Source: an uncultured Gammaproteobacteria bacterium
Lineage (GTDB): Bacteria; Pseudomonadota; Gammaproteobacteria; DRJJ01
Direction: 5' to 3'
Length of the DNA stretch: 64,000 nucleotides
Assembly: GCA_947258795.1 (NCBI GenBank)
Contig: CAMYJU010000002.1
Location: forward strand, 1-64,000
Each line of letters starts with the position of its first letter. Position 1 is the first letter of the stretch. The notes beneath the pieces are model-generated. The model was not told the origin of the DNA and did no database searches. It saw only the letters and a program-made list of their open reading frames with translations. This document shows positions 54,121-55,632 of this stretch, one piece after another. Made by a program: the position numbers and the translations under genes.

Positions 54121-55632
54121 TCACTGATAGCCGCAGTCCGGTACGGTATTGCTGCGAATATTGTCGGTCAACGCGCCGTTGGCAGTCAGGTACTGTCTGC
54201 AAATCAGTATAAAATCATCCGGACCTGCAATATAGAAATCACATTCTGAAAGCTTGTTGTAGTCTCGTTTGATCCCCGCCAGTAGTGTATGCAGTTTGCT
54301 GTGGTCCTGATTCTGATCGAGACTGCCTGGATAGATGAGTGGTGTATACCTGAAATCATCCAGTGCATCGTTCCAGGCCCGGCACAGGTTGTTCAAATAA
54401 TGTTCATTCGATTCGCTGGCTACCCAGTATAAACAGATTTTTTCTGCCATATTCAGCGCGATAGCATGCTCAATCAGGCTGTTAACGGGCATAAAACCGG
54501 TCTCGTAGACGATAAATATCGCAACTCGGGGTGAGTCGATATTAAACAGAAAGTCGCCATGTGGTCCGGAGACTGTCAAGGCCTGGCCCGTTCGCAAGGC
54601 GGTAAGTGTTTCATTAAATCGGCTGTGGTCATGCCGGATATGGAACTGCAGTTTACGGTCGTCACACGGGCAACTGGTCAGAGGTATTTTTCTGGCAAGT
54701 CCCTCACCCAGATCCAGTTCCGCCCATTGTCCTGCCAGGTATCGAAAACGGCTTGATGGATGAGACATGACAGTCAGCAGGCCAGTCGTGTCTGACAGGG
54801 GCTTGTAGGATTTGAACGAAACCTCTACGGTCTGCTGGGGCAGGTCTTGCGCCCCGATTGTCTCGTCTACTTCTATCTTCAGGTCGCTCACGGCGGTATT
54901 GGCACAGGTCAGGACATACCCGGCCACCTGCTCTTCCTCCGGTATGTAGTAGGAATATTTCCTGATTTTCTTGATATGACCGTCAACGATACGTGCCTTA
55001 CACATGCCACAGCTGCCATCGTTACAGCCATAGGGTATGGAGAAGCCGGCCTTGGTTGCTGACTCCAGGATCGTAGAGTTGCCCTCGATAAAAAATTCGT
55101 GACCCGTGTTTACCAGGTTGACATGGGCAGTAACCAGCCTTAACAAGGTGTCCTGAACCAGCAATGGAACAACGATTTCAGCTTCGTGCAGGACCGCCCC
55201 CAGTTCCCGGTTGACCCATTCGTGCAAATCGCCAGCCAGGATCTTTTCCTGTTCGTTACCACTATGCTGATAATGACGTAGTTTCGCCTTTAACGCAGAT
55301 ACCATCTTTTTTATACAGGTAAATTGTCCGCGTGCATTGCTCAATTCGACGGCGAGTTCATTCAGGCGTTCGAACAGGACCTCCGCATCGGGCAGGATCA
55401 GTTCGTGTACACGCTTTGAGAAGGCCTTGGACTTGATTTCGTTGACGCGATTGAACTCTACATCCTGATAGGGTTGTGCATCCGGATAGGCCTTCAGCAG
55501 GTCTGCCATCAGTACATTGCCTTCGAAGGTCCCCAGCTCTCCCGATCGGATTTTTTTCTGTAATTGTCCGCGACTCACGCCAACCAGCTTGGCGGCACGG
55601 GATAAAGGTACGTATTGTTCCATGACGACCAC
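54121..55632 (-). CDS. HTH / [2Fe-2S] ferredoxin / flavin-reductase fusion
   Basis: This protein is 503 residues. Residues 1-55 form a MerR/excisionase-like helix-turn-helix (PLSRAAKLVGVSRGQLQKKI). A helical linker of about 110 residues follows. Residues 175-250 are a plant-type ferredoxin with C203, C208, C211 and C243 (CNDGSCGMC and LTCANT). The rest is an FNR-like reductase: an FAD segment (FRYLAGQWAEL), SGPHGDF and an NAD-binding tail. This layout joins a DNA-binding or protein-binding module to an electron-transfer chain in one chain. I infer a redox-sensing regulator or a reductase with an adaptor. The start has an ATG three codons later (MEQYV). No oxygenase partner is next to it. Confidence 0.85.
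   Translation of the reverse strand: MVVMEQYVPLSRAAKLVGVSRGQLQKKIRSGELGTFEGNVLMADLLKAYPDAQPYQDVEFNRVNEIKSKAFSKRVHELILPDAEVLFERLNELAVELSNARGQFTCIKKMVSALKAKLRHYQHSGNEQEKILAGDLHEWVNRELGAVLHEAEIVVPLLVQDTLLRLVTAHVNLVNTGHEFFIEGNSTILESATKAGFSIPYGCNDGSCGMCKARIVDGHIKKIRKYSYYIPEEEQVAGYVLTCANTAVSDLKIEVDETIGAQDLPQQTVEVSFKSYKPLSDTTGLLTVMSHPSSRFRYLAGQWAELDLGEGLARKIPLTSCPCDDRKLQFHIRHDHSRFNETLTALRTGQALTVSGPHGDFLFNIDSPRVAIFIVYETGFMPVNSLIEHAIALNMAEKICLYWVASESNEHYLNNLCRAWNDALDDFRYTPLIYPGSLDQNQDHSKLHTLLAGIKRDYNKLSECDFYIAGPDDFILICRQYLTANGALTDNIRSNTVPDCGYQ

Follow-up and report, generated by a model that had tools for sequence, protein, structure and literature searches.

The window, that is, the whole stretch of 64,000 nucleotides that was analysed, carries on its reverse strand a fusion gene in which a predicted winged HTH, a coiled coil, a [2Fe-2S] ferredoxin and an FNR-like region follow each other. 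The neighbouring genes encode CheV, a receiver and a GGDEF-EAL protein. ORF analysis of the window showed that positions 54121-55632 of this strand are open throughout in one frame, giving one chain. The ATG at 55623 appears a likelier start than the GTG at 55632, because the homologues start at the equivalent of Met4. The features of the locus are listed below.

54121-55632, (-) strand: fusion gene (HTH, coiled coil, [2Fe-2S], FNR-like), 503 amino acids from the GTG at 55632
55477-55623, (-) strand: likely MerR/Xis-like winged HTH, residues 4-52 (weak Pfam and NCBIfam matches; AF2 with Foldseek; invariant residues)
55132-55461, (-) strand: long helices that are predicted to form a coiled coil, residues 58-167 (AF2 secondary structure; coiled-coil matches only)
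54865-55131, (-) strand: plant-type [2Fe-2S] ferredoxin domain, residues 168-256 (Pfam Fer2; invariant C203, C208, C211 and C243)
54145-54834, (-) strand: FNR-like domain without the canonical motifs for flavin and NAD(P)H, residues 267-496 (domain matches, Foldseek, alignment)
54664-54675, (-) strand: Ser-Cys-Pro-Cys, residues 320-323, at the FNR-family flavin site, a hallmark of the subfamily (alignment)
54382-54384, (-) strand: Cys417 in an NxCR(S/A)W motif, kept in most members (alignments)

Architecture of the chain and its N-terminal module

Pfam, NCBIfam and AF2 give the domain order from the N-terminus as HTH, long helices, Fer2 and FNR-like region. For the complete chain, AF2 gave a model with a mean pLDDT of 83.1 and a pTM of 0.67. 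Library models of Pfam and NCBIfam place the parts (Fer2, FNR fold, HTH) and none of them spans the whole architecture. A preliminary description of this DNA had claimed that an HTH, a ferredoxin and a reductase-like domain are joined in a single chain, and this was borne out by the one ORF and by full-length homologues in other genomes. The same architecture, when searched for elsewhere, was recovered in 16 of the 185 genomes of the class and in five genomes of a second, phylum-level panel (G393, G537, G444 and G420 from the same class, G418 from another); hence, it is not an artefact. Fusion relatives also occur in Thioploca, Sedimenticola and Lamellibrachia endosymbionts, and the fused form is represented by 26 distinct sequences. 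Between the HTH and the ferredoxin there is a coiled-coil stretch of some 110 residues, which was absent from the preliminary description. In the following, the winged HTH with the coiled coil is termed module N, and the [2Fe-2S] ferredoxin with the FNR-like domain module F.

The N-terminal segment had been described as a MerR/excisionase-like HTH. In the window protein alone, the sequence matches stay below the cut-offs (HTH_17, Pfam E 0.06; TIGR excise, NCBIfam E 0.037), and HTH_17 matches 13 of 31 members of the N-module family, at best with 8e-6. It is the predicted fold that agrees with the description: the AF2 model of the N-module alone (mean pLDDT 85.5) matches excisionase 4j2n with a Foldseek probability of 0.99, an E-value of 0.2 and a TM score of 0.66-0.68 over the target, and the MerR, BldC and RacA folds were matched as well, all with E-values above 0.05, namely 0.07 or worse. 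Modelling thus makes an HTH in the window protein likely and well supported, and it stays short of proven because no Foldseek E-value is below 0.001. Residues A13, A14, R21, Q25, E37 and G38 are invariant across the 20 aligned fusions. The recognition helix, SRGxLQKKIR, is mostly positive in N-modules; in three standalone N-modules (G015, G044 and G088) it is net negative, and DNA binding is doubtful for these three on that account. A search for shared operator-like dyads in 27 regions upstream of the genes gave none above shuffles. An 11-bp match with TTTGCCTGT was seen upstream of both congeneric fusion genes (upstream of 55632 in the window and of 9597 in L038), the surrounding DNA being dissimilar.

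The arrangement predicted for module N, a long coiled coil behind a winged HTH, would be that of MerR-family and excisionase/BldC proteins; unlike these, the fusion has an Fe-S and FNR-like module as its effector part and a wing with a conserved F-E-G. The MerR-type SoxR combines a MerR-like HTH, a coiled coil and a [2Fe-2S] cluster in one chain, and the fusion may be likened by analogy to it and to other Fe-S transcription factors. It differs from these in that the cluster belongs to a full plant-type ferredoxin domain rather than to a short cysteine loop, in its much larger size and in the extra FNR-like domain.

The ferredoxin and the FNR-like domain

The Fer2 match (residues 177-244, Pfam E 3.6e-12) lies above the cut-off. 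The cluster cysteines C203, C208, C211 and C243 (C-x4-C-x2-C...C) are invariant in 20 fusion homologues, and the first three are present in all 56 aligned F-type domains. The complete ferredoxin cluster motif noted in the preliminary description is confirmed by the Fer2 match and the four invariant cysteines.

A two-domain FNR-like fold is present behind the ferredoxin (Foldseek, 1qfj with TM 0.84 over the target and 4wqm with E 1.8e-23). NAD_binding_1 (residues 378-478, Pfam E 5e-5) is matched above the cut-off and FAD_binding_6 (residues 280-361, Pfam E 0.028) below it. The C-terminal two thirds of the AF2 model match T4moF, GcoB and BenC in Foldseek, the full-chain model giving E 1.8e-23 for T4moF and 4.6e-22 for BenC, and the FNR core is partly retained in the fusion alignment through the motifs AGQ, GFAP and GPxGxF. 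With the ferredoxin-FNR oxygenase reductases (BenC, T4moF, GcoB and PaaE-like), the fusion shares the order of Fer2, FNR barrel and NAD fold, the C-x4-C-x2-C...C cluster and the fold. Unlike them, it is without RxYS, GGTG and a kept CGP, has Cys-Pro-Cys and NxCRSW, bears the N-terminal HTH and coiled coil, and is linked to dsr genes and not to oxygenases.

The FNR-family motifs RxYS, GGTG and CGP bind flavin and NAD(P)H. At the flavin site, RxY/F[ST] was found in none of 50 subfamily members and in all six generic homologues, where it reads R.FS followed by ANxP; Cys-Pro-Cys occupies the former flavin site in 50/50 subfamily members and in 0/6 generic homologues. The GGTG nucleotide loop is replaced across the subfamily by YETG, FDTG and similar non-glycine, often acidic variants (VYETG in the window), whereas its paired glycines are kept or nearly so in the generic homologues. 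The CGP motif is not kept in the subfamily, and C417 (NxCRSW) is kept in most of its members. In a tree of the 56 F-type domains, the Cys-Pro-Cys subfamily forms a clade of 50 with support of 100/100. That electrons pass from NAD(P)H to the Fe-S cluster by an ordinary route appears doubtful, given that the whole subfamily is devoid of the signature motifs for flavin and NAD(P)H; the domain may have lost the binding of these cofactors.

Distribution of the modules and association with dsr genes

A profile search with the N-module revealed standalone ORFs of about 145-160 amino acids in 16 more genomes, and in three of these (G117, G125 and G084) the N ORF directly precedes a ferredoxin/FNR-like ORF. 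Among the non-fused genomes, F was present in 11/16 with N versus 11/153 without N (Fisher 4e-8) and, when the three operon genomes were removed, in 8/13 with N (p 6e-6), both p-values ignoring shared ancestry. N without F is found in four genomes (G056, G102, G109 and G131) and perhaps in G062; conversely, 11 genomes have F and no N. As the two modules are encoded separately, as a two-gene operon or as a fusion, it was concluded that they work together. In the F-domain tree, 26 fused and 4 unfused domains fall into one group with support of 93/84. Such a topology is consistent with one main fusion and later losses, a single origin being short of proven.

The occurrence of the modules follows that of the genes for reverse dissimilatory sulfite reductase (rDsr). 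dsrB was detected above the curated cut-off in 59 of the 185 class genomes, and a further three, whose dsr genes are truncated (G067, G087 and G033), complete a dsr+ set of 62. N and/or F are carried by 40 of these 62 and by 3 of the 123 dsr- genomes, the sampling of genomes at family level reducing, and not removing, the shared ancestry behind such counts. The three dsr- carriers (G045, G178 and G093) are all soxB+, with a completeness of only 81% and 72% in two cases. By itself, soxB is not predictive, as only 3 of the 20 soxB+ dsr- genomes are carriers. In 22 dsr+ genomes neither module was found, so the N/F system is dispensable for rDsr. In the phylum panel, all five strong fusion matches besides the window are dsrB+, compared with 51/398 overall (p 3e-5); if only the window's class is considered, the dsrB+ genomes of this panel and its fusion carriers are one and the same set.

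Gene order points the same way in several genomes. Unfused F lies directly after dsrS in G088, G183, G042 and G015, where the dsr operon ends in dsrS and F comes next. The order in G088 is dsrO, dsrP, dsrN, dsrR, a 377-amino acid ORF at the dsrS position and then unfused F; the names dsrR and dsrS rest here on position, on weak model matches and on the literature (PMC3368242). In G117, a split N and F pair is located about 8 kb downstream of dsrS; in G109, about 4 kb separate N from the dsrR that precedes it. As for the fused gene, it directly precedes dsrL in G418, of another class, on the same strand and at a distance of 116 bp; it lies about 3.5 kb upstream of dsrA, and divergent from it, in G420, where a second dsrC-like gene (L169, 11656-11970) is situated between the two; and in G444 its distance to dsrS is about 4 kb. 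In the window's genome, the dsr operon including dsrB is on contig C1 and the fusion on C2, and in most other fusion carriers, too, the fused gene is not at the dsr operon and is often encoded away from it. On contig C1, dsrN appears as two ORFs (L160, 8722-9381 and 9402-10070), which may reflect a frameshift or an assembly error.

Two further kinds of gene were observed around these loci. Members of a small protein family (131-152 amino acids), which contain several cysteines and match no Pfam model, are encoded close to loci of the ferredoxin module in four genomes (L043 11328-11786, L054 7941-8357, L056 7233-7628 and L098 4005-4454). A solitary protein akin to the C-terminal domains of Xre/MbcA/ParS antitoxins (one was tested and fell just below the Pfam cut-off) is encoded directly before three standalone N-module genes (L100 7277-7687, L101 7371-7787 and L105 7257-7667) and near one fusion (L043 10676-11104).

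Like the rDsr accessory genes dsrL, dsrR and dsrS, the N and F modules are distributed along with dsr; unlike them, they are not homologous to these genes. The passages of PMC3368242 and PMC11406059 that were consulted do not list the modules with the dsr genes. The fusion is conserved and nearly confined to bacteria that oxidise sulfur by rDsr, and it probably serves this pathway, for control or in electron transport, as an undescribed component and not as a chemotaxis protein.

Candidate roles of the fusion protein

Sulfur-oxidising Proteobacteria of the rDsr type would have a two-module system, of which the window protein would be the fused version. The [2Fe-2S] cluster, once loaded, and/or the Cys-Pro-Cys pair would read the redox or sulfane-sulfur (persulfide) state arising from sulfur oxidation; the coiled coil would dimerise the chain and relay the sensed state to the HTH, which, as the output, would bind DNA and control sulfur-oxidation genes as its putative targets. 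The chance that the fusion protein regulates sulfur oxidation in response to the redox or sulfane-sulfur state is put at not far short of even. The fusion, operon and co-occurrence of N and F, the predicted fold of module N, the Cys-Pro-Cys clade and the tie to dsr speak for this reading; the three net-negative recognition helices, the lack of a shared dyad, the 22 dsr+ genomes with neither module and, in the window's genome, the separation of the gene from dsr speak against it. A more specific version is possible, if on the unlikely side: a disabled flavoreductase would have been turned into a sensor, with the Cys-Pro-Cys pair as a persulfide/redox switch wired via the [2Fe-2S] ferredoxin to the winged HTH, the whole being a dedicated rDsr regulator that is either split or fused.

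In the chief alternative, which we consider rather improbable, the fusion would assist the rDsr machinery (e.g., DsrL or DsrAB) as a partner in electron transfer or persulfide handling, its N-module only dimerising and docking, or being a vestigial HTH without DNA binding. The location of F alone after dsrS and of the fused gene beside dsrL in G418 would suit such a partner, as would the four retained cluster cysteines; the loss of the canonical motifs for flavin and NAD(P)H, however, does not. With respect to the N-module, the net-negative recognition helices in three genomes, the 11 genomes that have F without N and the lack of a shared operator upstream speak for such a partner, whereas the linkage of N to F in three arrangements, the R21/Q25 of the recognition helix kept in the fusions and the N-modules that occur alone in four genomes speak against it.

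In the preliminary description, a working NAD(P)H-FAD-[2Fe-2S] reductase joined to an HTH was proposed to form a transcription factor reduced directly by NAD(P)H. The general idea of a redox-controlled transcription factor survives in part, in that the HTH-like and Fe-S modules form a conserved unit; its NAD(P)H path does not fare as well. The retained FNR fold and its core motifs, the NAD_binding_1 match above the Pfam cut-off and the strong Foldseek matches to T4moF and BenC would fit a working reductase, but with RxYS missing in every one of the 50 members, GGTG lost and CGP not kept, direct reduction by NAD(P)H is regarded as unlikely.

It is very improbable that the fusion is a chemotaxis or cyclic di-GMP control protein acting with its CheV, receiver and GGDEF-EAL neighbours, the link to motility or biofilm control that the preliminary description had suggested. 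These neighbours are found in the window and in its congener G045 only; in the latter, another gene, a divergent unfused Cys-Pro-Cys ferredoxin gene that is absent in the window, separates the fusion from the receiver gene (L038, 9735-10802). A tblastn search of the 195-bp gap between fusion and receiver in the window gave no match to a remnant of that second ferredoxin gene. Adjacency to cheV, expected from that link, does not extend beyond the genus, and a CheV link was rejected on this ground. Proximity to GGDEF genes was seen as a modest, roughly threefold excess (a GGDEF domain within 3 kb in 10/59 loci versus 2.9 expected); three carriers (G109, G141 and G180) are without any GGDEF gene, and cyclic di-GMP was therefore rejected as an essential partner.

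An ordinary oxygenase reductase of the BenC/T4moF type with an unimportant N-terminal extension is hardly credible: BenC is the best NCBIfam match and the nearest solved structures are oxygenase reductases, but all oxygenase-reductase models fall far below their cut-offs (BenC with 101 versus 430 bits), no oxygenase partner was seen among the scanned neighbour genes, and the N-terminal extension is conserved and separately encoded elsewhere.

The favoured reading, a regulator of sulfur oxidation, can be compared with SqrR, the ArsR-type SoxR of Hyphomicrobium and CsoR-type regulators, in which cysteine-based sensing, as proposed for the fusion, is tied to sulfur-oxidation genes (PMC10451225). 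Unlike the fusion, whose role is only proposed, these regulators are of an unrelated fold and are without an Fe-S or FNR-like part. No description of such a fusion, or of the gene after dsrS, was found in the open-access literature, most subscription papers being outside this coverage. Known folds appear to be joined in an undescribed combination, of which there may be an earlier mention, and attached to a known pathway.

Little is known about the sensing of inorganic sulfur compounds (PMC10451225), and PMC3368242 describes several dsr genes as being of unresolved role. The activation of the dsr genes in cells that resort to stored sulfur is poorly understood. A protein family whose occurrence follows dsr in many gammaproteobacterial families, and whose genes lie within the operon or next to it in several of these, offers a concrete candidate for the missing control or electron component, and it presents an FNR-fold domain in which a cysteine pair seems to have taken the place of the cofactor site.
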